This document shows positions 9,344-43,207 of a stretch of DNA of 64,000 nucleotides, in pieces (within the stretch, counting starts at the first letter, position 1; each line of letters opens with the position of its first letter). The position numbers and the translations under genes were made by a program. Below the pieces are notes generated by a model that was not told the DNA's origin, searched no databases, and was given only the letters and a program-made list of their open reading frames with translations. This DNA is from Phytohabitans houttuyneae (lineage in GTDB: Bacteria; Actinomycetota; Actinomycetes; Mycobacteriales; Micromonosporaceae). Where the stretch lies: positions 806,997 to 870,996 of the forward strand of contig NZ_BLPF01000002.1 in assembly GCF_011764425.1 (NCBI RefSeq), read 5' to 3'.

Positions 9344-10630
9344 CTACGTCGTCGTGCCGTCCGGTCTGATGTGCGTAAAGCCGGTCAGCGCCGTCAATGC
9401 GTCAGGTATCCGGATCGAGCCGTCGGCTTGCTGGAATTGCTCCAGGATCGCTGCCAGCGTGCGGCCGATCGGCAGCGCGGAGCCGTTGAGGGTGGCGGCG
9501 AACCCCCGGGCGCCGTCGCGGCTTCGGGTGCGGATGTTCGCCCGCCGTGCCTGCAGCGTGCCCATGTTGGAGCAGCTGGAGACCTCCCGGTAGCTGTTCT
9601 GCCCGGGTAGCCAGACTTCAATGTCGTAGGTGTACTGCGCGGCGAAGCCCAGATCGCCGGCGGGCAGCACCACCACCCGGTAGGCCAGCCCGAGCTCGGC
9701 CAGGCACGCCTCGGCATGCCGGACCATGGCCTCGAGTTCGGCGCCGGCCCGCGCGGGCTCGCAGATGCGCACCAGCTCCACCTTGGAAAACTGGTGCAGC
9801 CGGATCAGGCCGCGGGTGTCCTTGCCGTACGAGCCGGCCTCGGAGCGAAAGCACGGGGTGCATGCGGTCAGGGCAAGTGGCAGCGACTCCGTGGCGATGG
9901 TCTCGCCGGCGAAGAGGTTGGTCAGGGGCACCTCGGCGGTGGGAACGAGAAACAGCTCGCGGTCGGCGACGCTCGTGCTGAACAGGTCTTCCTCGAACTT
10001 GGGCAGCTGACCGGTGCCGGTCATGGTGGCCCGGTTGACCAGGACGGGCACCGAGTGCTCGACGTAGCCGTGCCGGGTGGTGTGCATGGTGAGAAAGAAG
10101 GTGGTCAGTGCCCGCTCCAGGGCCGCGCCCGCCCCGGACAGGACCGCGAAACGCGCTCCGGCCAGCTTGGTGGCCCGCTTGAGGTCCAGGATGCCGGTGC
10201 GTTCGCCCAGGCTCACGTGGTCCTGCGGTGCGAAGTCGAACGCCGGTATCGAGCCGACCCTGCGTATCTCCTGGGCGTCCGCGTCCGAGGCACCGTCGGG
10301 CGCCGCGTCGTCCGGCAGGTTCGGGATGGTCAGCAGCAGGTCGCGCAGCTCCTCGTCGCACCGTCGCTGCCGGGCCTCCGCCTCGGACAGCGCGGACTTC
10401 ACGTCGCGGGCGCGGGCCACCAGGCCGTCGCGTTCGGCGGCCGAGGGTGCCCGGCGCACCTGCTCGGCGAGGCTTTTGGTCTGCGTGCGCAGTGCGTCGA
10501 CCGCCTGTGCCGCGGCGGTGCGCTCCGCCGACATCTTGCCCAGCAGGTCGAGATCAAGCTGGTAGCCGCGCCGGGCCAGCTTCTGGACGGAGTTCGTGGC
10601 GGGGTCGAGCAACGCTCGTGGATCGTGCAT
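9344..10630 (-). CDS. Seryl-tRNA synthetase, biosynthetic paralogue (VlmL type)
   Basis: A complete 428-residue class II SerRS. It has the N-terminal antiparallel coiled-coil arm (about residues 30-110) that reads the long variable arm of tRNA-Ser, motif 2 (CFRSEAGSYGKDTRGLIRLH) and motif 3 (NGSALPIGRTLAAILEQ). It makes seryl-AMP and seryl-tRNA. In valanimycin biosynthesis VlmL does this to supply serine to VlmA. The cluster context, the VlmA-type gene and the anticodon-less tRNA-Ser-like gene 3.2 kb away argue strongly for the same role. SerRS enzymes as a family ignore the anticodon, so that RNA is a plausible substrate. A role as a resistance copy is possible but less supported. Confidence 0.93.
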   Translation of the reverse strand: MHDPRALLDPATNSVQKLARRGYQLDLDLLGKMSAERTAAAQAVDALRTQTKSLAEQVRRAPSAAERDGLVARARDVKSALSEAEARQRRCDEELRDLLLTIPNLPDDAAPDGASDADAQEIRRVGSIPAFDFAPQDHVSLGERTGILDLKRATKLAGARFAVLSGAGAALERALTTFFLTMHTTRHGYVEHSVPVLVNRATMTGTGQLPKFEEDLFSTSVADRELFLVPTAEVPLTNLFAGETIATESLPLALTACTPCFRSEAGSYGKDTRGLIRLHQFSKVELVRICEPARAGAELEAMVRHAEACLAELGLAYRVVVLPAGDLGFAAQYTYDIEVWLPGQNSYREVSSCSNMGTLQARRANIRTRSRDGARGFAATLNGSALPIGRTLAAILEQFQQADGSIRIPDALTALTGFTHIRPDGTTT

Positions 10631-10705: not shown

Positions 10706-10723
10706 ACCTGACCGCGCGCTGAC
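10706..10723 (-). promoter_or_regulatory. Candidate SARP heptamer pair upstream of SerRS
   Basis: On the minus strand GTCAGCG (10723) and GTCAGGT (10712) are 11 bp apart. The third repeat position is poor (CCACCGT), and the hexamer 8 bp downstream (CAGCCG) is a weak -10. It lies about 75 bp upstream of the SerRS start, so a weak SARP site is plausible but less certain than the others. Confidence 0.4.
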
Positions 10724-10965: not shown

Positions 10966-11139
10966 TTCCCCATCGGTAAATGCTGCCCGAGCCTGGTCTG
11001 GCCGCGAGACCCAAATATCCTCGGGCAGTTGGTCGCCAAGTGTCGGCGCCGCCTTTTCCGGGTACACCTTTTTTGTCCACCGGTGCGTCGAAGCACGGTG
11101 TTGGGGCCTGTCGCGTGCAAGCCAATGGGGGAGTAAGTG

Positions 11140-11952
11140 ATGTTGAGCTTTCTGGTGCTCGGTCCTATGGAGGTTCGCACTCATGACCGCACAGTGACGT
11201 TCAAAGGGCCAATCCAGCAAACGTTGCTCGCCATGTTCCTGTGCAGCGGTGAGAAGCTGATCACCGTCAACGCGCTCATCGAGGAGCTCTGGGGCACCAC
11301 ACCACCAGCAACCGTGGAAAACGCACTGCAGGCCAACATCAGCCGGCTGCGCCGCACTCTCGCGCGGCTGGAGCCCCGCCGCCAGGAGTCGCGGCTTGCC
11401 ACCAGGACCTCCGGATACCAGTTCAACCTCGAGCGCGCCGAGCTGGACGCGGCGAAGATGCTCGAAACCGTCGATTCGATCCGGGCCCGAGCCGGCAACT
11501 ACCGCCGCCGCGACGTCGCCGACCTGCGGGAGGTGCTCGCCCTGTGGCGCGGTCCCGTATTCGGCGGCCTCACCGGCGGTCCGATCTGCCAGGCCGCCGT
11601 CGCCAAGTACGACGAGTACCGGACCGCCGCGCTGGTGATGCTCTACGAGGCCGAGCTCGCCGGCGGCGAGCACGCCAAGATCGTGCCGGAGCTGCGTGAG
11701 CTGGTGACCGAAAACTCCTCCCAGGAGTGCTTCAGCTCGTTGCTGATGATCGCCCTGTACCGCTCCGGCCGGCAGACCGACGCGCTCACGGTGGCCCGGC
11801 AGCTGCGCACCAACCTCATCGACGAGTTGGGCATCGAGCCGTCGCCGGCGGTACAGGATCTCGAGCGGGCGATCCTCAACCACGACATCCGGATGCGACA
11901 GGAGAACACCGAGCTTCCCTGGCTGTCCTACCGCAGCGGCCGGGCCGCATAG
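11140..11952 (+). CDS. SARP-family transcriptional activator (VlmI type)
   Basis: A 270-residue protein of minimal SARP size. An N-terminal OmpR-like winged helix (FLVLGPMEVRTHDRTVTFKG, LIEELWGTTPPATVENALQA, SGYQFNL) is followed by a bacterial transcriptional activation (BTAD) domain to the end (RQLRTNLIDELGIEPSPAVQ). GGGGGAG precedes ATG 11140; GTG 11137 is an alternative. SARPs bind directly repeated heptamers at 11-bp spacing just upstream of -10 boxes. At least five such promoters occur in this window, all at cluster genes, so this is their probable activator. It corresponds to the SARP VlmI that controls valanimycin production. Confidence 0.92.
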   Translation: MLSFLVLGPMEVRTHDRTVTFKGPIQQTLLAMFLCSGEKLITVNALIEELWGTTPPATVENALQANISRLRRTLARLEPRRQESRLATRTSGYQFNLERAELDAAKMLETVDSIRARAGNYRRRDVADLREVLALWRGPVFGGLTGGPICQAAVAKYDEYRTAALVMLYEAELAGGEHAKIVPELRELVTENSSQECFSSLLMIALYRSGRQTDALTVARQLRTNLIDELGIEPSPAVQDLERAILNHDIRMRQENTELPWLSYRSGRAA

Positions 11953-11963
11953 CCACCGGGCGC

Positions 11964-13472
11964 TCACGCCATCGACAGCCCCGCCTGCGACGCGGTGGTG
12001 CTCGGCGGGCTGAGCGCGTCCTGCAGCAGGCTGCGCACCTGCGCGGAGTTCAGCTGGTCGAGGTCCGCGCAGGCCGCGGCGATGTCGGCGCCACCGCCGT
12101 TGGCCAGAAACTTCTTGCGTACCAGCTGGTGGTGGTGGACGCGGGTGTCCGGCCCGGCGGCTCCGATCGGGATGTCCCGCTCCCGGCTGATCGAGCGGCC
12201 GTCGGCGAACCGGACCGTGACCCGCGCGGCCGTCTGCTTGGTCGCCGCCTCGAAGGTCGCTACCGGAGGCGCCGCCGCCTCGAACGCGTCGACGAGCGCG
12301 GAACCGCCGAACTGGCTCAGCCACCCGGTCGCCCGCTCGCCGGCCTGCCGCAGCGCCTCGCCGAGCGGGGCGTCGGAGGCGAGCAGCTTGCGGGTCATCT
12401 CCGGGCTGTGCGACAGCCGCACCTTGCTCGCCAGCGCCCACCGAGCCGCGTCGTCGATGGCCGGCCGGGCGAAGTCGGATACCGCCAGGTCGCCTCTTAT
12501 CAGCGCTGTCGCGACGGTGTACGGAACCGACAGCGGAAGCGTGCTGGTCACCGGCACCGCGGCGCCGGTGTAGGAGCCGGAGATCCGGCTGGCGTACGTC
12601 GTGTAGAACGACGCGTCCACGAGAATCTCCGCCACATCGTCCGGCGCCACGTTGCCGATCTGCTGATTGATCTCGATGGCGCAGTCGACCGCCGCGTCGA
12701 TACCGGGCCCTCCGGGGCGCACCTTGAAAGACAGCGTCTCGGTGTGCCACCGCCGTCCCAGGCCATTGACGATCGTCTCCGGCAGTGGCACGGACGCGAA
12801 GCGCGACAGAAATCCGTCGGCGTGCTCGAAGATGTCGGAAGGCCCGGCCAATCCGGCCCGGGCGCTGTCGCACGCGTCCATGCCGATACGCACCGGGATG
12901 AACGCGCTCAGAACGCGGGCGTCACTTCCCAAAAAGGCGTGAAACAGCGTCCAGGGCGGCATGGAGAACGCCAGCCCGAACGCGTCGACCCACTGCCGGG
13001 CGGGCGCGTTTTCGGCTTGCAGGCGCCCGCTCACCGCGCCGGCGAGGCTTGTCTGCGGCGCGGTCTGCCCCCGAAACGGCCCGAGGGTCGCGCTCGCGGT
13101 GATGCGGGCGGCGCATTCGTTCGCCGCGATGACCGCGGTGAGCAGGTCCGCACCGTCGAGGTGGCGTGCGTACGCGAACGCGAGCGGGACCGAAACGGTC
13201 GAGTTGGACAGGTGCCCGGCGTAGGCGGTGTCGTCGAGGTTGAGCCAGGAGCCGAGTCCGGCGAGGATGCACGCCGACCGGGCCGGGTCGGCCTGCAGCG
13301 GCGGGCCGAACGCGCGCACCAGCGACGCGCCGAGCGGGTGCGCCATACCGGCACGTATCGCGGCCAGCTGCGAGAGGATCTGGCTTTTCGCCAAGCTGAC
13401 CACGCGGTCGGGTATGTCGCCAAGACGTAAAGAGCTCGCCCACTCGGACAGTTCCTCGGTGAGACTGGCCAT
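11964..13472 (-). CDS. MmgE/PrpD-family dehydratase-like protein 1 (VlmK type)
   Basis: A 502-residue MmgE/PrpD protein. Landmarks are the all-alpha N-terminal half (SQILSQLAAIRAGM, SWLNLDDTAYAGHLSNS, AANECAARITASATLG) and RRWHTETLSFKVRPGGPG at about 270. Family members include 2-methylcitrate dehydratase. In valanimycin biosynthesis, VlmK of this superfamily works with the kinase VlmJ to dehydrate valanimycin hydrate. Start ATG 13472 follows GAAGGGAAAG. It is closely similar throughout to the second copy at 24937. It faces the SARP gene tail to tail and has its own SARP-type promoter at 13656-13698, leaving a leader of about 175 nt. Confidence 0.87.
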   Translation of the reverse strand: MASLTEELSEWASSLRLGDIPDRVVSLAKSQILSQLAAIRAGMAHPLGASLVRAFGPPLQADPARSACILAGLGSWLNLDDTAYAGHLSNSTVSVPLAFAYARHLDGADLLTAVIAANECAARITASATLGPFRGQTAPQTSLAGAVSGRLQAENAPARQWVDAFGLAFSMPPWTLFHAFLGSDARVLSAFIPVRIGMDACDSARAGLAGPSDIFEHADGFLSRFASVPLPETIVNGLGRRWHTETLSFKVRPGGPGIDAAVDCAIEINQQIGNVAPDDVAEILVDASFYTTYASRISGSYTGAAVPVTSTLPLSVPYTVATALIRGDLAVSDFARPAIDDAARWALASKVRLSHSPEMTRKLLASDAPLGEALRQAGERATGWLSQFGGSALVDAFEAAAPPVATFEAATKQTAARVTVRFADGRSISRERDIPIGAAGPDTRVHHHQLVRKKFLANGGGADIAAACADLDQLNSAQVRSLLQDALSPPSTTASQAGLSMA

Positions 13473-13747: not shown

Positions 13748-13790
13748 GTCAGTGTGCTGTCAGTGCGCGCTCAGCGCGGTCTGCCATAGT
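13748..13790 (+). promoter_or_regulatory. SARP-type promoter of the tRNA-like gene
   Basis: GTCAGTG (13748), GTCAGTG (13759) and CTCAGCG (13770) are phased at 11 bp. They are followed by 8 bp and CATAGT (13785-13790) as the -10. Predicted transcription begins near 13797, about 41 nt before the RNA body. The leader can form a 6-bp hairpin (13805-13810 with 13825-13830) with an A-rich loop. The arrangement puts this RNA under the pathway activator, unlike a housekeeping tRNA. Confidence 0.78.
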
Positions 13791-13837: not shown

Positions 13838-13925
13838 GGAGAGGTACCGCAGAGGCCTAACGGAACCGAGCTTCGGCTTGGTGAGGGATCTGATCCCTTC
13901 GCAGGTTCGAATCCTGCCCTCTCCG
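13838..13925 (+). tRNA. Anticodon-less class II tRNA-Ser-like RNA
   Basis: The 88-nt body folds as a class II tRNA. The acceptor stem GGAGAGG/CCTCTCC is perfect (7 bp), followed by U8, a 3-bp D stem (CCG/CGG), and a D loop with A14, a purine at 15, GG at 18-19 and A21. There is a 6-bp long variable arm (AGGGAT/ATCCCT, loop CTG), a perfect 5-bp T stem (GCAGG/CCTGC) with loop TTCGAAT, C48, and discriminator G73. The long arm and G73 are serine features. The anticodon arm (13865-13882) is ACCGAGC-TTCG-GCTTGGT: seven continuous pairs capped by a C(UUCG)G tetraloop, so there is no 7-nt loop, no U33 after a C/U32 and no anticodon. CCA is not encoded. It cannot decode but should be chargeable by SerRS. 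It is inferred to be a dedicated seryl carrier for the VlmA-type transferase. Confidence 0.88.
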
Positions 13926-13941
13926 CTCCACACGAGCCGAT

Positions 13942-13975
13942 GGAGACGCGGCGACGGCGCCGTCGCCGCGTCTCC
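13942..13975 (+). terminator. Strong hairpin after the tRNA-like gene
   Basis: A perfect 34-bp inverted repeat (17-bp arms, GGAGACGCGG at the outer end, GACGGC at the centre) begins 16 bp after the RNA body. There is no U tract, as is common for actinomycete terminators. It may end the RNA transcript or protect its 3' end while allowing some read-through into the kinase gene. Confidence 0.65.
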
Positions 13976-14047: not shown

Positions 14048-15055
14048 ATGGCGCAGTCCGCAGACCTGACCGCGGTCAGTTGTGTCGTCATCGCGAATCC
14101 CGCCGCCGGCACCATCACGGCGAGCATCCTCGACGACCTGATGGACCGGTGCGGACGGCACGGCCCGACGCGCCTGCTGCGGACCCATCGCAAAGGCGAC
14201 GGCACGCTGCTGGCCCGCGCGGTCCTGGCCGAGCCCGACGACGGCACGCTGCGCGTGGTGATCTCGGTGGGCGGCGACGGCACGACCAGGGAGGTCGTGG
14301 AGGGCGTGGTCGGCGGCGGTCACGCCTCGACGCGGCACGCGCTGTTCATCGTGCCGGCCGGCACCGGCAACTCCAACTACCGCGCCCACTGGGGTGAGAC
14401 GGACTGGCGCACCGCGCTGGACACCGCCCTGTCCGCGCCGCAGGACTCGCTGCGCCGGCTCGACGTCGCCCGCTTCGTCGAGCGTGACCGGCTGGTGGTG
14501 CTCGGCGCCGGCGCGGGCCTGACCGCCGACGTGCTCAACCTCGCGCCGCAGTCGATGAAGGGCCGCGACCGGCTGCGCGCCGGCCTGGAGCTGGCCGCGC
14601 TCCGGTTCGTCCCGTACCCGGGGCGCGTCACCGTGGACGGCGTGGTGCTGCACGAGGGCCCCACGGTGTTCGCCAACGCCGGCGGCGGCCGGTACCGGGC
14701 CTGGCAGTACCTCATCCTGCCGCACTCCGGGCTCGACGACGGACTGCTGGACGTGTGCGTGGTCGGTGCCGCGGTGCCGGTCGCCGGCGTGCCCGCACTG
14801 CTGCGTTCGGGCGCGCACCTGTCCGAGCCGGGCGTGCGTTACACCCGCGGCCGGCAGGTGGTCATCGAGCGCACCGACGGCGAGCCGCTCTGCTTCGAGC
14901 ACGACGGCGAGCTGGTGGCCGACGCCGGCGCGAAGGTCACGCTCGAAGTGGTCCCCGCGGCCCTGCCCGCGCTGTGCACGCCACAGCCGGACGACGACCG
15001 TTTCGCGGCGCCGGGTGCCGGTCCGCTGGCCCGCTCTGCCGCCGGCGACGCCTGA
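14048..15055 (+). CDS. Diacylglycerol-kinase-fold kinase (VlmJ type)
   Basis: A 335-residue DAGK-catalytic-domain protein. Nucleotide-binding motifs are VVIANPAAGT (residue 13 onwards), SVGGDGTTREVVEGVVGGG (about 76-95) and PAGTGNSNYRAHW (about 106-118), and a C-terminal FEHDGELV loop closes the second domain. Start ATG 14048 follows GGAGTGACGA. In the valanimycin pathway VlmJ, a DAGK homologue, phosphorylates valanimycin hydrate so that VlmK can eliminate phosphate. The pairing here with two MmgE/PrpD genes supports that role on an azoxy alcohol. It follows the tRNA-like gene in the same direction and may be co-transcribed with it, since no separate SARP site is visible. Confidence 0.88.
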   Translation: MAQSADLTAVSCVVIANPAAGTITASILDDLMDRCGRHGPTRLLRTHRKGDGTLLARAVLAEPDDGTLRVVISVGGDGTTREVVEGVVGGGHASTRHALFIVPAGTGNSNYRAHWGETDWRTALDTALSAPQDSLRRLDVARFVERDRLVVLGAGAGLTADVLNLAPQSMKGRDRLRAGLELAALRFVPYPGRVTVDGVVLHEGPTVFANAGGGRYRAWQYLILPHSGLDDGLLDVCVVGAAVPVAGVPALLRSGAHLSEPGVRYTRGRQVVIERTDGEPLCFEHDGELVADAGAKVTLEVVPAALPALCTPQPDDDRFAAPGAGPLARSAAGDA

Positions 15056-29659: not shown

Positions 29660-30685
29660 TCAGCGGCTCGGCAGGGCGGTGACGTGAGGCCAGACCAGCG
29701 TCGTCGCGCCCCAGGCGAGGCCCCCGCCGAACGCGGCGACGAGCACCCGGTGTCCGGGCTCCAGCCGTCCGTCCGCCGCGGACTCGGTGAGCAGCAGGGG
29801 TACCGAGGCGGCCGCGGTGTTGCCGACCTCCGCGATGTTGCCGAGCACGCGGGCGGGCTCGATGCCCAGCCGCTCCGCCACCGCGGCGGCGATCCTGGCG
29901 TTGGCCTGGTGCGGTACGAAGCGGTCGACGTCGCCGGGCTCCCAACCGGCCAGCTCCAGCGACTCCAGGGCCGCCGCCGTCATCCGCTCCACCGCGTGCC
30001 GGTACACGTCGCCGCCGCGCATCTGGAAGTAGTGCTCCGCCGGCGCGGCGGGTACCCCGGACGAGCGCTGGCGGGACCCGCCGGCCGGAATGTTGATCAG
30101 CTCGCTGTGCTCGCCGTCGCTGCCCAGCACGCAGCGCCCGATGGCGCCGGGCTCGTCCGCGCGCCCGGCGCGCAGCACCAGCGCCGCGGCACCGTCACCG
30201 AAGATGGCCCGGGTGGTCCGGTCGGCGGGGTCGAGGATCGTCGAGTACGTCTCGGCGCCGATCAGCAGCACCCGGGTCGCGGCGCCGGAGGCGACCAGCC
30301 CGGCGGAGACGGCCACGCCGTAAAGGAAGCCGGCGCAAACCGCCGAGACGTCGAACGCCGCGCGGCCGGTCAGGCCCAGCCTGGCGGCCACCTCCGGCGC
30401 GGTCGCCGGGCAGAGCCGGTCCGGGGTGGTCGTGGCCAAAACCACCGCGTCGACCATGTCGTCGTCGGCCGCCTTCATGGCCAGCATGCCCGCCTCGACC
30501 GCCAGGTCGCTGGTGCTCACGCCCCGCTCCACCCAGCGGCGCGTCGCGATGCCGGTGCGGCTGCGGATCCACTCGTCGGAGGTGTCCAGATGGGCGGCCA
30601 GGTCGTCGTTGGTGACGATCCGGGGAGGCAGGTACGAGCCCAGCCCGGCCACCACGGCGTGCGTGCCCGCCCGCGCCGCGCTCAT
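29660..30685 (-). CDS. Beta-ketoacyl-ACP synthase III (KASIII/FabH-like)
   Basis: A 341-residue thiolase-fold enzyme with Cys in DVSAVCAGFLYG (about residue 115), His in FVPHQANARI (about 258) and Asn in EVGNTAAASVP (about 288): the full Cys-His-Asn triad. It condenses an acyl-CoA with malonyl-ACP, or transfers an acyl group. Its ATG overlaps the stop of the ferritin-like gene by 4 bp (ATGA). Together with ACP 2 it may start chain formation from an unusual acyl-CoA, or join an acyl group to the azoxy part. It is not among the valanimycin functions I know. Confidence 0.9.
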   Translation of the reverse strand: MSAARAGTHAVVAGLGSYLPPRIVTNDDLAAHLDTSDEWIRSRTGIATRRWVERGVSTSDLAVEAGMLAMKAADDDMVDAVVLATTTPDRLCPATAPEVAARLGLTGRAAFDVSAVCAGFLYGVAVSAGLVASGAATRVLLIGAETYSTILDPADRTTRAIFGDGAAALVLRAGRADEPGAIGRCVLGSDGEHSELINIPAGGSRQRSSGVPAAPAEHYFQMRGGDVYRHAVERMTAAALESLELAGWEPGDVDRFVPHQANARIAAAVAERLGIEPARVLGNIAEVGNTAAASVPLLLTESAADGRLEPGHRVLVAAFGGGLAWGATTLVWPHVTALPSR

Positions 30686-31668
30686 GGCTCCTGCCTGGTC
30701 AGCATCAGCGGCAGCGCCTCCGGGATGCCCATGTACGAAAGGCGCACCTTGGCCATCTCGTCGGTCCACTGCTCGGCGGTGTCGTAGCGCCCCTCGGGGG
30801 TGGTGTCCAGAAGCCGCACGCCGGGCCACGCCTCGTAGTCGGCGATCAGGTGCGCGTGCTCGTGCATCCCGGCCTGGAAGAGCTCCTCGCGCTCCAGCAC
30901 GTACTTGCGGTCCGGGATCCCGTCCCACAGCTGCCGGCCCCGGGTCAGGATGTCCAGCAGGCGCGGGCGGTAGCCGGGCTCGCGGATCAGGCGCTCGCGG
31001 ACGATCGAGCTGCCGACGGACAGGTGCCGGATCTCGTCGATCGACGCGCCGCGGGCGATCGCGCCGGCCGCCGGGTCCAGCACGTTCCACTTCCGCTCGC
31101 TCAGCTCTGCCGCCGGAGCCAGCACACCCTCGATGACGATGGTGAACACCGCGACGCCGCCGATGAAGTCGTCCTCGTCGCGGACCGCGCTCAGCGCGAA
31201 GTCGAGGATCGGGTCGACCACGTCACGGCGGTAGTCGGCGGAGATCTCGGCGATGGTGGCGTGCAGGGTGTCGGCCGGTACGCCCATCTCCAGCAGGTGG
31301 CCGCGGAACACCATCGAATGCCGCGCCTCGTCCAGCAGCTGGGTGGCGTAGAACTCCATGTCCGGCACCGTCGGCGCGTTGGCCACGTAGTAGGACAGCA
31401 CCCGGGTGGCCTGCTCCTCGGCGACCGACCGGTAGGCCAGCTCCATCACCAGCGCGTCGCGCAGCGGGCCGGGCTGGCGCATGTGCTCCGGCGTGCCCTC
31501 GTGCTCGGCGTGGCCGGTGGCGGCCCGGCCGGCCAGGGTGCCCTGTGCGACGTTGCGCAGCCAGTAGCTCAGGTCGCACTGGCTCGCCGTGAGGTTGAGG
31601 TTCATCGCGCCGTCGAGCAGTCCGGGAGCGGTGTCCCAGTCCGTCTCCGCGTTCGTGGGTGTGGTCAT
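30682..31668 (-). CDS. Ferritin-like di-iron oxygenase (VlmB/AurF-like)
   Basis: A 328-residue helical protein with two iron-binding ExxH-type motifs, LLDEARHSM (about residue 113) and SIDEIRHLS (about 210), and further Glu residues in VAEEQ and IVIEGV that can complete a di-iron site. The pattern matches ferritin-like N-oxygenases and the VlmB-type proteins of azoxy clusters. ATG 31668 follows AAGGGA. Its position in a tight operon with the membrane protein and flavin reductase supports a role in oxidising an N-N intermediate to the azoxy group, as I recall being proposed for VlmB. Direct N-oxygenation of an amine is an alternative. Confidence 0.8.
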   Translation of the reverse strand: MTTPTNAETDWDTAPGLLDGAMNLNLTASQCDLSYWLRNVAQGTLAGRAATGHAEHEGTPEHMRQPGPLRDALVMELAYRSVAEEQATRVLSYYVANAPTVPDMEFYATQLLDEARHSMVFRGHLLEMGVPADTLHATIAEISADYRRDVVDPILDFALSAVRDEDDFIGGVAVFTIVIEGVLAPAAELSERKWNVLDPAAGAIARGASIDEIRHLSVGSSIVRERLIREPGYRPRLLDILTRGRQLWDGIPDRKYVLEREELFQAGMHEHAHLIADYEAWPGVRLLDTTPEGRYDTAEQWTDEMAKVRLSYMGIPEALPLMLTRQEP

Positions 31669-31686: not shown

Positions 31687-32259
31687 TCAGTCCAGCGTCG
31701 TGGTGCAAGGGCTGGTGCCGGCCCGCCCACGGATCACGTCGCGCAGCTCGGCGCCGTGCAGGGCCCCGGCGAAACTCAGCAGCGGGCCGCCGACCCCGAC
31801 GGTGCCGTCGACCACCTCGCCGAGCAGCAGCTCGTGGTCGCCGGCGCCGACGTGGCCGTGGACTCGACAGATCAGTACGGACAGTGCGCTGCGCAGCAGC
31901 GGCAGGCCGGTGGCGGGGTCCGGCTCCCAGTCGATGAGCGCGAACTGCTTGTGCCCGGCCGGGCGGGCCGGATTGGCGAACCAGTCGGCGATCAGCGACT
32001 GCCGCTCCGACAGCACGTTGACCGCGAACTGGCCGCTGGCCACCGCCAGCCTGGTGAGCGTGGAGCCGGTACGCAGCCCGGCGGCCACGATGAGCGGGCC
32101 GCGGGAGACAAGGCTCGCCGCGCTGACGGTGGCACCGTGCACGGTGTCCTCGTGCGCCGCGGTCAGCAGGGTCACCCCGGTGGTCAGGCGCGCCGCCGCC
32201 GCCTGCAGTGCGCGGCGGCGGGCGTTCTGCTTGGTGCTCGGCCTTTGGTCGACGGTCAT
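31687..32259 (-). CDS. Flavin reductase (VlmR type)
   Basis: A 190-residue flavin_reduct-domain protein with the split beta-barrel pattern HGATVSAASLVSRGPLIVAA, FAVNVLSERQSLIADWFANP and GDHELLLGEVVDG. It uses NAD(P)H to make free FADH2/FMNH2 for a two-component monooxygenase. In valanimycin biosynthesis VlmR serves the N-hydroxylase VlmH. The partner here is the acyl-CoA-dehydrogenase-fold protein at 34607. Its ATG at 32259 overlaps the stop of the membrane-protein gene (ATGA). Confidence 0.9.
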   Translation of the reverse strand: MTVDQRPSTKQNARRRALQAAAARLTTGVTLLTAAHEDTVHGATVSAASLVSRGPLIVAAGLRTGSTLTRLAVASGQFAVNVLSERQSLIADWFANPARPAGHKQFALIDWEPDPATGLPLLRSALSVLICRVHGHVGAGDHELLLGEVVDGTVGVGGPLLSFAGALHGAELRDVIRGRAGTSPCTTTLD

Positions 32260-32753
32260 CGAGTCGCACCCGCGCCGGTGGCCACCGGCTGCTCGGACGC
32301 GGCCGGGGCACCGCCACCGGTGAGCTTCTGGATGAACTGCTGGAACGCGGGGTTCGGCACCGGCTCGAAGGGCAGCTTGAACGACTTGAGGAAGTTGCCG
32401 AAGATGCCCCGGTCGGCGAACAGGTGCAGCGGCAGCACCAGCAGAGTCCAATCTGGACCGTAGACGAGCGTCCAGACCACGGCCACCGCGCCCTGCGTCA
32501 CCATGCTGTGCATGATGTTGTAGGCGACGTAGTAGCCCTTGCTGATGTGCCCGGTCTTACTGCGCCGGAAGGCGATCGCGCCGGGGATGTACCCGATCAG
32601 GTCGATGTAGACGAACAGCAGGATCGCCGGGATCCACCTGATCTCGCCGATGTGCATGATGAACAGCACCAGGGCGACGAGGAGCCCGAAGAGGTACTCC
32701 GCGCGGTGCAGGCGGTAGGTGTTGGGGGTTTCGAACTGGTTGGCCATGTCCAT
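32256..32753 (-). CDS. Small integral membrane protein of the azoxy operon (VlmO type?)
   Basis: A 165-residue protein with four hydrophobic segments at about 20-36, 39-59, 76-98 and 100-113. His and acidic residues line their ends (YRLHRAEYLF, FIMHIGEIRW, YVAYNIMHSM, LPLHLFADRG), which could bind metal or a cofactor. A Pro-rich tail follows. ATG 32753 has AGAGGTGG 6 bp upstream. Membrane proteins of unknown or N-N-forming function (VlmO) are a hallmark of azoxy clusters. Assignment rests on size, topology and neighbours, not on an alignment. If it is VlmO-like it would act on the O-seryl hydroxylamine. Confidence 0.65.
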   Translation of the reverse strand: MDMANQFETPNTYRLHRAEYLFGLLVALVLFIMHIGEIRWIPAILLFVYIDLIGYIPGAIAFRRSKTGHISKGYYVAYNIMHSMVTQGAVAVVWTLVYGPDWTLLVLPLHLFADRGIFGNFLKSFKLPFEPVPNPAFQQFIQKLTGGGAPAASEQPVATGAGATR

Positions 32754-34606: not shown

Positions 34607-35746
34607 TCAGGACAGCACGAGCGGCCCGCCGGCGAAGTAGTCGACGAGCGCCTCCGCTGTGCTGGTACGCGACGGCGGGTGGTAGGCCAGCGGGTGCACC
34701 GCCGCGGCCAGGTAGGCGATCTCGCCGGAGGAGATGAACGCGATGCCGCCCAGCAGCTCGACCGCCATCTCGGTAGCGGCGGCAAGCGCCTTCTGTACCG
34801 CGAACCGGGTGACCAGGACGGCCGCCACCGCGTCGTCGCCGGCGATGCCGTCGCGGACGGCCCGGGCCGTCCCCTCGGTCAGCGACACGGCGGACTCCAG
34901 CTGCACGCACATCGCCGCCCGGTCGCTGATGCTGCCCCGCGAGCGTTCGAGCACCCGGGTCACCAGCTCGCTGGCGGCGCCCACGTACGCGGAGGTGACG
35001 AGCAGCTCGAACCAGATGAACGCCGCGACCTGCAGGTCGTCCAGCCGGCCCGGGTCCTCCGGCGTGGCCCGGATGATCAGGCGGTCCGGCACGTGCACGT
35101 TGACCAGGCGCACCTCGTCGCTCTGCGCGGCCGCCAGGATGTTGCTCGACCAGAACGGCCGGATCGAGATGCCGGGGGAGTCCGAGGGGATCAGCAGGAT
35201 GGCCAGCGCCTGCGCACCGTCCTCTGTGGGCAGTATCGCGCTCGCGGTCAGCAGGTCCATCGAGGCGGACATGCTGCACGGCTTCTTGGCGCCGTTGACC
35301 ACGAACCCGTCGTTCGTCGGCACGGCCACCACGCTGGGATTGAGGATGTTCTGCTCGGTCTTGCCCTCGGCCCATCCCGAGGCGAGCAGCAGCCCGTCGG
35401 GCGCGATCCGGGACAGCAGCTCCACCTGCGACTCGGTGGGCTTCCCGACCCGGTCGGCGAGGGCGAAGAGCATGGCCGCGGTGAAGTTGTGCATGGTCGC
35501 CGCCGCGCCCAGCGACGGCGAGTACGAGCCGATCGCGCGGGTCACCCGCACGGCTTCGAGGGGGTCGGCGCCGCAGCCTCCGTACTTGGCCGGTACCAGC
35601 AACGAGGCGCCCTGGTGGGTGCGGAAGGCCTCGACGACCGAACTTCCCTTGGCCTCGCGCTCCAGCAGGGGGATCTCGCCGAGGCTCTTGTTGAGCCCGG
35701 GGTGGTACCGCTCGCAGGTCTCGCGCGCGATGTCCAACGAACGCAT
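34607..35746 (-). CDS. Acyl-CoA-dehydrogenase-fold amine N-hydroxylase (VlmH type)
   Basis: A 379-residue member of the ACAD/flavin monooxygenase fold. It starts RSLDIARETCERYHPGLNKS and has LLASGWAEGKTEQN, VVNGAKKPCSMSASMDLLT and a helical C-terminal half with AVELLGGIAFISSGEIAYL. In the VlmH family this fold uses FADH2 and O2 to hydroxylate alkylamines. The catalytic Glu of true acyl-CoA dehydrogenases is not evident where expected. A flavin reductase is in the same operon. ATG 35746 follows GAAAGGA. An acyl-chain desaturase role is the alternative. Confidence 0.82.
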   Translation of the reverse strand: MRSLDIARETCERYHPGLNKSLGEIPLLEREAKGSSVVEAFRTHQGASLLVPAKYGGCGADPLEAVRVTRAIGSYSPSLGAAATMHNFTAAMLFALADRVGKPTESQVELLSRIAPDGLLLASGWAEGKTEQNILNPSVVAVPTNDGFVVNGAKKPCSMSASMDLLTASAILPTEDGAQALAILLIPSDSPGISIRPFWSSNILAAAQSDEVRLVNVHVPDRLIIRATPEDPGRLDDLQVAAFIWFELLVTSAYVGAASELVTRVLERSRGSISDRAAMCVQLESAVSLTEGTARAVRDGIAGDDAVAAVLVTRFAVQKALAAATEMAVELLGGIAFISSGEIAYLAAAVHPLAYHPPSRTSTAEALVDYFAGGPLVLS

Positions 35747-37472: not shown

Positions 37473-37515
37473 ACGCTAATAGGGATTCCTGACCGCCGAC
37501 TGACTGAAGGCTGAC
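37473..37515 (-). promoter_or_regulatory. SARP-type promoter of the ten-gene azoxy operon
   Basis: On the minus strand GTCAGCC (37515-37509), GTCAGTC (37504-37498) and GTCAGGA (37493-37487) are phased at 11 bp. They are followed by 8 bp and TAGCGT (37478-37473) as the -10. The transcript would begin near 37466. Confidence 0.78.
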
Positions 37516-37528
37516 CACGTCGATGGCG

Positions 37529-37557
37529 AGCTGACAATTCGCTGACGTCGAGCTGAT
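37529..37557 (-). promoter_or_regulatory. Second upstream SARP heptamer triplet
   Basis: On the minus strand ATCAGCT (37557-37551), GTCAGCG (37546-37540) and GTCAGCT (37535-37529) are also phased at 11 bp. They stand 13 bp upstream of the first triplet. No good -10 follows at 8 bp. It may strengthen binding to the main promoter or influence the divergent VlmA-type gene. Confidence 0.6.
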
Positions 37558-37666: not shown

Positions 37667-38665
37667 ATGATTACGGCAGTCGAGACCACTGAGTACGTAC
37701 GAAACACCATCATGGAGTACGCGTCAGCAGACAACCCGAGCTCATTTCTAGCAATGAGCCAGGGCAACTCGTACTTTATTTCGCCAGGGCGAAAAGGCGT
37801 CATCGTGTACCGCGCGACAGGCCGGTACTTCGTACAGTTCGGGGGCCCGTTCGCACCTGAGGAGTCGTACCGCGAGCTGCTCGCGGAGTTCGTGGCGTTC
37901 GCCAAGGAGCAGGAGCGCGAGATCGTCGCCGTCCAGCTGCAGCGCGCGGACGCGCTCACGTACGCCGACTGCGGGTTCAGCGTCAGCCAGATCGGCGCCT
38001 CCTACGCGGTCGACCTGGAGACGTTCACGCTCGCGGGCACCAGGTTCATGCAGCTGCGCAACAAGATCTCCCGCGCGCTGCGCAACGGCCTGACCATCAT
38101 CGAGGCCGACTACGACGAGTGGCAGGCTTCCGTCGAAGAGATCGACCGGCTTTGGCTGCCGCTCAAGGGCGAGGGAAAGCGACAGCTCGAATTCCTTGTC
38201 GGACAATGCGGTGGGCCGGCGCAGCGATACCGCCGGCTCTTCATCGGGCTCGTCGACGGCAAGATGGCGGGCTACATCCTCTACTCGCCGGTGTACGGCA
38301 GCCGGCCCGGCTGGATGCACGACCTGAGCCGGCGCCGCCCCGACCTCTCTCCGGGTGTCATGGAAGCCATCAACAAGGCCGCCATCGACAAGTTTCAGGA
38401 AGAGGGCGTCCGCTGGCTGCATTTCGGCTTCACCCCGTTTACCGGGCTCGACGAGAAACTGGAACTGCCCGGCAGCAGCCCGGCTTTCCGCTGGTTCATG
38501 AGCTTCCTGTGGGAGCACGGCGAAGCGGTGTACCCGGCCGCCACCCAGCTCGACTACAAGCGGAAGTGGAACCAGAGCATCGTCCTGCCGGAGTACGCGG
38601 CGTTTCAGGGCCCGGCCAGCATTCCCGCCTTCGTACACATCTTCCGCGCCTGTAACGCGCTCTGA
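37667..38665 (+). CDS. Aminoacyl-tRNA transferase, MprF C-terminal/DUF2156 fold (VlmA type)
   Basis: A 332-residue soluble protein of the double-GNAT DUF2156 fold seen in the cytosolic half of MprF. It contains PSSFLAMSQGNSYFISPGRKGVIVYR near the start, AEEDYDEW-like segments (EADYDEWQASVEEIDRLWLP), the conserved IGLVDGKMAGYILYSPVYG core and DLSRRRPDLSPGVMEAINKA. MprF moves aminoacyl groups from tRNA to lipid. VlmA moves serine from seryl-tRNA to isobutylhydroxylamine. The local SerRS and the tRNA-like gene make seryl transfer to an N-hydroxylamine the best reading. It lacks MprF's membrane flippase domain, so the acceptor is probably soluble. Confidence 0.85.
   Translation: MITAVETTEYVRNTIMEYASADNPSSFLAMSQGNSYFISPGRKGVIVYRATGRYFVQFGGPFAPEESYRELLAEFVAFAKEQEREIVAVQLQRADALTYADCGFSVSQIGASYAVDLETFTLAGTRFMQLRNKISRALRNGLTIIEADYDEWQASVEEIDRLWLPLKGEGKRQLEFLVGQCGGPAQRYRRLFIGLVDGKMAGYILYSPVYGSRPGWMHDLSRRRPDLSPGVMEAINKAAIDKFQEEGVRWLHFGFTPFTGLDEKLELPGSSPAFRWFMSFLWEHGEAVYPAATQLDYKRKWNQSIVLPEYAAFQGPASIPAFVHIFRACNAL

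Positions 38666-41773: not shown

Positions 41774-43207
<1,434 letters not shown>

Follow-up and report, generated by a model that had tools for sequence, protein, structure and literature searches.

An anticodon-less tRNA-Ser-like RNA that accompanies VlmA genes, a likely seryl carrier for azoxy biosynthesis

The window, by which we mean the whole stretch of 64,000 nucleotides of Phytohabitans houttuyneae DNA that was analysed, carries a gene cluster that is assigned to the aliphatic azoxy type by family matches to VlmA-, VlmH-, VlmB- and VlmR-type proteins. It includes a minus-strand gene for a VlmL-like seryl-tRNA synthetase (SerRS) with an N-terminal tRNA-binding domain (9344-10630; TIGR00414, 444.5 bits with a cut-off of 301.65), a plus-strand gene for a SARP-family regulator (BTAD; 11137-11952; family match), the probable activator of the promoter boxes described below, and a minus-strand gene for a VlmK-like MmgE/PrpD protein (11964-13403; family match), a family named in the available excerpt of PMC9379638. 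A diacylglycerol-kinase-like protein with YegS_C, VlmJ-like by family match, is encoded on the plus strand (14048-15055), its gene starting 122 nt downstream of the RNA that is the subject of this report. Further along lie genes for an R2-like oxidase-type protein (30682-31668, minus strand), a weak match below the cut-off whose homologues are annotated as VlmB-like, for an acyl-CoA-dehydrogenase-like protein (34607-35737, minus strand), a putative VlmH-like N-hydroxylase by position and family, and for an LPG_synthase_C protein (37667-38665, plus strand; PF09924, E 1.1e-60), a putative VlmA-like seryl transferase. The cluster also encodes a flavin reductase (Pfam/NCBIfam matches) and a polyketide synthase (PKS), of which the last third was scanned, and a 165-aa protein (32256-32753) that recurs beside VlmA/VlmH in other loci may be VlmO. 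The same excerpt of PMC9379638 gives PF19279 and PF03972 for VlmJ and VlmK, PF02403 for SerRS and PF09924 for VlmA, and neither the VlmJ- nor the VlmK-like protein was matched by PADLOC. A rifampin monooxygenase adjoins the cluster (41786-43207; NF033145, 804.2 bits with a cut-off of 800).

Between the VlmK- and VlmJ-like genes, the plus strand holds an 88-nt tRNA-Ser-like RNA without an anticodon (13838-13925). By direct reading, its 7-bp acceptor stem GGAGAGG/CCUCUCC (13838-13844/13918-13924) is followed by the discriminator G73 at 13925, its D loop has GG, and its T arm (13901-13917) is GCAGG-UUCGAAU-CCUGC. The position of the anticodon arm (13865-13882) is taken by ACCGAGC-UUCG-GCUUGGU, a 7-bp stem closed by a UUCG tetraloop (13872-13875), so that this arm has no 7-nt anticodon loop carrying U33 and a serine anticodon. 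The region of the long variable arm (13883-13900), which marks class II tRNAs and is described in a passage of PMC9976931 as the main serine identity element, was found by folding; with it and G73 the RNA shows the class II cloverleaf of tRNA-Ser. ARAGORN made a single tRNA call in the window (13838-13926, plus strand), tRNA-??? with a two-base 'anticodon'. Unconstrained folding recovered the acceptor, the T arm, the 7-bp/UUCG arm and the variable arm, and did not recover the D stem, which consists of 3 bp and a mismatch; the folding energy was -41.6 kcal/mol (z -2.66), with 4 of 200 shuffles equally good. ARAGORN, direct reading and folding thus agree with an earlier sequence-only reading, which had described a class II tRNA body whose anticodon arm is replaced by a 7-bp UUCG hairpin. 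Its account of the acceptor, T stem, G73 and D- and T-loop bases also stands, and its 6-bp variable arm has to be amended, to 7 bp with a 3-nt loop in the predicted fold.

CCA is not encoded at the 3' end of the RNA, and directly 3' of it lies a 15-bp hairpin (13942-13975, plus strand; z -4.5 for a 65-nt fragment), a possible terminator without a T run; automatic promoter and T-run terminator scans gave nothing at the RNA. No Rfam 15 family matched in the window at gathering thresholds, and the best tRNA-clan match of the RNA was tRNA-Sec, with 31 bits versus a cut-off of 47. ARAGORN reported no tmRNA in the window, and the 88-nt RNA has no mRNA-like tag module. The RNA is present in one copy in the P. 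houttuyneae genome, where it scored 68.8 bits (E 1.9e-10) with a covariance model built from eight other family members, the window being left out, versus 55.9 bits for the highest-scoring ordinary tRNA-Ser in the same genome, Ser(CGA).

Bacterial genome contigs were scanned with a DNA pattern in which the acceptor and T arm were fixed and the middle was free, which yielded at least 120 loci with at least 144 copies, at least 129 of them distinct, from Streptomyces, Kitasatospora, Salinispora, Micromonospora, Longispora, Actinokineospora, Saccharothrix, Embleya and others. RNA length ranged from 77 to 99 nt among the scan copies listed; the invariant acceptor and T arm of this set prove nothing because the pattern imposes both, the middle alone being free. 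A search for VlmA homologues in 298 genomes of the window's order led to further copies. Two tandem copies lie upstream of a VlmJ-like gene in one genome (G126), a copy adjoins VlmA in another (G150) and a copy lies upstream of a VlmJ-like gene in a third (G008), and more copies are present on Streptomyces plasmids. When the first 102 distinct sequences were folded with the acceptor, T and D stems constrained, the first hairpin of the middle had a 3-5-nt loop in 95 of the 102 RNAs and a 6-8-nt loop in the remaining 7, with GCAA (13) and UUCG (11) as the commonest loops. An Infernal alignment of 115 copies (104 distinct), which is fitted to the model's own structure, showed two-sided changes at 19 of 27 pairs versus 7.9 in shuffled data, and 97.8% of its cells were paired; sliding the partners by one column led to a collapse. 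The helices of the anticodon arm contributed 140 of the 186 doubly changed cells of this alignment, and in a stem-swap test the paired fraction was 0.78 for a stem's own halves versus 0.48 for swapped halves. Overall, the window RNA is a member of a family, beyond what chance would give. The covariance-model search of related azoxy clusters proposed in the sequence-only reading thus showed a widespread and structurally conserved RNA, the opposite of the absence that was foreseen for a decayed tRNA.

Individual copies depart from this pattern in size. A 77-nt copy in a metagenome-assembled genome (L111:4312-4388), beside an intact copy, seemingly has no anticodon hairpin; it is among the 95 short-loop cases, and the hairpin counted there is probably its variable arm. 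At another locus, a 191-nt model match (L119:4693-4883) follows two normal tandem copies and may be a third that has acquired an insertion.

None of the 129 distinct copies listed has, at the usual site, a paired 7-nt loop that combines U33 with a serine anticodon. When at least 4 of the 5 stem pairs were required, a 7-nt loop containing a serine triplet could be drawn in one register or another for 12 of the 129, and only one of these, out of register, has U33 (L149); another copy has ACU at the normal place, but A33 (L104). When the pairing demand was dropped, U33 and a serine triplet occurred in some 7-nt segment of the middle in 30 of the 129 copies, where between 1 and 4 of the 5 flank pairs can form (4 of them in three copies) and the predicted cost of opening the segment is at least 2.5 kcal/mol in each of the 30; in two distinct copies from one locus (L173), GUGCUUC sits close to the normal position, with 3 of 5 stem pairs. 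A lenient test allowed a 5-bp, 7-nt, U33 arm to be drawn in 7 of the 129, none with a serine triplet. ARAGORN named 60 of the 129 with assorted anticodons, as Val, Ala, Leu, Cys, Arg and other tRNAs (5 as Ser), left 38 unnamed and missed the rest. The stretch CUCGA, with which the CUCGAAA loop of tRNA-Ser(CGA) (L198) begins, is kept in 14 of the 129 scan copies (e.g. L108, L120 and L136), where it now sits in the 3' strand of the hairpin of longer RNAs. Descent from tRNA-Ser(CGA) is therefore suggested, and the stretch is probably a relic of that tRNA.

Direct reading upstream of the window RNA revealed a promoter-like element (13748-13790, plus strand) of three NTCAG heptamers with an 11-nt period (13748, 13759 and 13770), the third being followed by 8 nt and then CATAGT (13785-13790). 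SARP-regulated genes are preceded by heptamer direct repeats with an 11-nt period that end 8 nt before the -10 element, and the sequence at 13748-13790 matches the spacing of this general rule. A motif scan found two further triple NTCAG boxes (37489-37557, minus strand) upstream of the minus-strand row of genes from ALDH to VlmB. In total, the window has six triple boxes versus 0.00 expected: two ahead of the ALDH-to-VlmB row, one near the likely start of a P450 gene, and one each ahead of the RNA, the PKS row and a second MmgE/PrpD gene. For the P450 gene and this MmgE/PrpD gene, the box is inside the longest open frame, upstream of the favoured start, and a two-repeat box lies at 10708, upstream of the SerRS gene. 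The RNA and the azoxy operons are thus preceded by a shared promoter motif.

The same arrangement recurs across the family. SARP-type repeats (GTCAG, 11-nt period) lie upstream of 111 of 118 leading copies among the scan matches listed, with CANNNT exactly 8 nt past the box in 93 of the 111. In a first set of leading copies, which overlaps the scan set, the two-repeat motif precedes 84 of 89, a count that does not include L049 (G150); it was found for 49 of the 52 copies without an azoxy core gene in the stretch and for 35 of the 37 others. Tandem follower copies had a box in 0 of 21 cases in the first set and 1 of 23 in the scan set. As controls, boxes occurred in 42 of 2260 windows drawn at random from these loci and in 0.1 of 111 shuffled sequences, and a two-repeat box lay upstream of 1 of 10 ordinary tRNA-Ser genes (L211:2618). 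Within 150 nt upstream, a box was absent for the copies of G008 (L051) and G150 (L049) and for four other leading copies of the first set. A passage of PMC4052509 cites work on VlmI as a SARP of valanimycin.

All 50 RNA-bearing genomes tested from the pattern scan have VlmA (best E 2.1e-70 or lower). Among 197 sampled Streptomycetales genomes, 35 have VlmA (E 1e-40), and the RNA occurs in 24 of these 35 versus 0 of the 162 without it (Fisher p 1e-22, relatedness ignored); the centre genome of the sample was chosen for its RNA, and without it the count is 23 of 34. The search of this large sample used stricter filters, with which weak matches can be lost. A 25th model match, in a genome without VlmA (G349), was identified by ARAGORN as an ordinary tRNA-Ser(GGA). 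Of 12 VlmA genomes from the window's order, 7 contain RNA copies that score 67 bits or more. The presence of the RNA tracks the azoxy pathway, and in the samples searched it is confined to VlmA-bearing genomes. The sequence-only reading had taken the RNA for a dedicated seryl carrier, and this view gains support from the conservation and spread of the family, its VlmA-only distribution in the samples and its SARP-type promoters.

A VlmA clade without the RNA exists. Nine of the 11 RNA-negative VlmA genomes of the Streptomycetales sample were examined; no SerRS, VlmJ or VlmK homologue was found in the 28-40 kb retrieved for each locus, and in these nine loci no RNA was detected beyond one 27.7-bit match. 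ARAGORN, run on 23 stretches (18 from nine RNA-negative genomes and 5 others), made two odd calls, at L223:8698 and L230:2629, of which the former was discarded as a further RNA since it sits inside an open reading frame. One genome is an exception (G006), with VlmA (55%) and VlmJ-, VlmK-, VlmH- and VlmB-like genes and no RNA. The available excerpt of PMC9379638 describes for azodyrecin an Ady1-like methyltransferase of the LCM family and a proposed use of alanyl-tRNA from the cell's pool, with no synthetase gene. Proteins of three RNA-negative loci were scanned; an LCM methyltransferase lies about 8-9 kb from VlmA in two of them (G485 and G444), and none was found among the proteins scanned for the third (G513). 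The RNA-positive G008 cluster also has an LCM methyltransferase gene (PF04072; L051:11630-12541), after its VlmJ-like gene, which rules out this enzyme as a mark of RNA-negative clusters.

Copy number ranges from 1 to 15 per genome among the 50 RNA-bearing genomes, and 51 of 86 RNA loci have no azoxy core gene within the stretch examined. The 15 copies of Streptomyces griseofuscus DSM 40191 are either plasmid-borne or no more than about 0.75 Mb from a chromosome end, and the 20 kb that surround VlmA contain no intact RNA. In the slot that separates VlmA from the SARP gene in this species (L243:11000-11090), the boxes and a -10-like element are kept, and the RNA seems reduced to a decayed 3' remnant. 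On the linear plasmid NZ_CP108456.1 (L059/L062), there are four near-identical copies: one precedes a VlmJ-like gene, and the other three sit roughly 30-40 kb off in an alaS-containing region. According to a crude gene call, the most widespread gene family beside dispersed copies occurs at 4 of 51 loci, and two sets of three dispersed loci share a close neighbour. This occurrence of copies in trans is consistent with a gene product that works as a diffusible RNA. That the RNA might be a leader for the VlmJ-like gene that follows it was considered and rejected, as neighbours vary by locus and dispersed copies have no widely shared neighbour.

According to a passage of PMC9976931, it is chiefly the variable arm, and not the anticodon, that determines serine identity. 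A VlmL-type SerRS (at least 55% identity) was found in 16 of 31 RNA-positive versus 0 of 16 RNA-negative VlmA genomes, and in the other 15 RNA-positive genomes the housekeeping SerRS would therefore have to charge the RNA, which the kept identity elements are predicted to allow. VlmA activity has been reported with Ser-tRNA(Ser), whose source is unstated in the excerpt of PMC12945691, and the special RNA may therefore not be strictly needed in vitro. The T stem of the window RNA has A51-U63, where the genome's own tRNA-Ser(CGA) (L198) and tRNA-Ser(GGA) have G51-C63 and Ser(GCT) has C51-G63. A49-U65 and A51-U63 are given in a passage of PMC4052509 for the weak EF-Tu binding of staphylococcal tRNA-Gly; by analogy, A51-U63 is a hint only that the window RNA may bind EF-Tu weakly.

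The evidence from sequence, distribution and promoters is strong, and from it we infer a biochemical course that leads from SARP binding and expression through charging to hand-over to VlmA and exclusion from the ribosome. The cluster SARP would activate the RNA promoter together with the azoxy operons, and the transcript would be processed like a tRNA and receive CCA. Serine would then be charged onto it by the cluster SerRS, or by the housekeeping SerRS where the cluster enzyme is missing, with the synthetase recognising the acceptor end together with the variable arm and disregarding the anticodon, and VlmA would transfer the serine from the charged RNA to a hydroxylamine. Because a closed hairpin replaces the anticodon loop, the charged RNA could not decode a codon; it would be kept out of decoding as antibiotic synthesis's own seryl supply, which would therefore not need to compete with translation for Ser-tRNA. 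We consider it likely that the RNA is a dedicated, co-regulated, non-decoding seryl carrier for azoxy synthesis.

Other explanations account for parts of these data. The missing anticodon, the failure of ARAGORN to assign the window RNA, the CUCGA relic in 14 of 129 copies and the truly decayed copy in the S. griseofuscus cluster slot, with only its 3' remnant, could all point to a tRNA-Ser gene that has decayed and persists beside the cluster by chance. However, there are at least 129 distinct copies, the stems covary in the alignment, boxes precede 111 of the 118 leading copies listed and the distribution is VlmA-only in the samples, while the S. griseofuscus remnant shows what decay looks like in a genome with 15 intact copies elsewhere; decay is therefore extremely improbable. 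Even less credence can be given to the idea that the copies are integration sites, or mobile passengers that were carried along by genomic islands: many do lie on chromosome arms and plasmids, but the widest neighbour family is found at 4 of 51 dispersed loci, two sets of three share a neighbour, and nearly every leading copy has its own box.

An alternative explanation is that the RNA has a regulatory function within the SARP regulon, for instance by occupying SerRS or by reporting on serine charging, without a donor role. SARP-type boxes and dispersed copies would suit such an RNA, and Bacillus cereus has a translation-inactive tRNA-like RNA with a regulatory role (passage of PMC3399842). 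Two indirect arguments make this reading unlikely: the acceptor end, G73, the D- and T-loop bases and the variable arm for charging are all kept, and VlmA needs a seryl-RNA donor. The RNA might also carry an amino acid other than serine, or feed another transferase, as the identity rules come from other organisms; this is very unlikely in view of the second SerRS added in 16 of 31 positive genomes. Alanine tRNA identity is set by G-U at 3-70, whereas 3-70 is A-U in the RNA. Furthermore, G73, G1-C72, G2-C71 and the long variable arm match the bacterial serine set in the excerpt of PMC9976931. Beyond the individual cluster, a seryl carrier of the proposed kind would represent a tRNA class without any decoding, a SARP-controlled, often multi-copy seryl-RNA that forms a private supply orthogonal to the ribosome, and we regard this wider reading as likely.

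Several pathways draw amino acids from tRNA, and the RNA gives a testable answer to how they might avoid the ribosome, namely by removal of the anticodon and placement of the gene under the pathway regulator. It is a possible orthogonal seryl carrier for engineering and a marker by which one branch of azoxy clusters can be recognised in genomes. If the proposal is true, similar RNAs may hide in other aminoacyl-tRNA-dependent pathways, mis-annotated as odd tRNAs.

Staphylococcal cell-wall tRNA-Gly species keep an anticodon. They serve peptidoglycan bridges, whereas the window RNA has 49-65 G-C and no anticodon loop. The RNA family shows no normal decoding loop and a pathway-linked distribution, and it may, like the non-proteinogenic tRNAs of staphylococcal type, be used only outside translation. 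At 77-99 nt it is serine-type, whereas tmRNA is alanine-type. A passage of PMC2481249 presents tmRNA as a chargeable tRNA-like body without an anticodon, similar to the window RNA, but tmRNA is also an mRNA and enters the ribosome. The staphylococcal tRNA-Gly, similar to the proposed role of the window RNA, is set aside for non-ribosomal transfer (passage of PMC4052509), and A51-U63 is common to both. The tRNA-Other (pseudo-tRNA) of Bacillus cereus is likewise a tRNA-like RNA acting outside translation, but it has a Trp anticodon, poor in vitro charging and regulatory roles, as far as described in the excerpt of PMC3399842. tRNA-Sec, the best Rfam tRNA-clan match, is serylated by SerRS and has a long extra arm (excerpt of PMC9976931), but it reads a stop codon in translation, and the match of the window RNA is below the cut-off. 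The closest pathway is the valanimycin VlmL/VlmA route, which shares a homologous set with the window (SerRS, VlmA, VlmB, VlmH, VlmR, VlmJ and VlmK types); compared by literature description, it operates with Ser-tRNA(Ser), no dedicated RNA being mentioned in the excerpts available, and the diversion of Ser-tRNA into valanimycin synthesis is called "still unknown" in a passage of the 2014 review PMC4052509. No report of an anticodon-less RNA of this kind was found in the open-licence PMC literature, a body of text that leaves preprints and most subscription papers outside. The concept of a non-translational tRNA is already known, and on a stricter reading the RNA could be a variant of such tRNAs. 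What appears to be new, because the literature searched showed no such class, is a conserved anticodon-less tRNA family for small-molecule synthesis that bears the promoter signature of its pathway.
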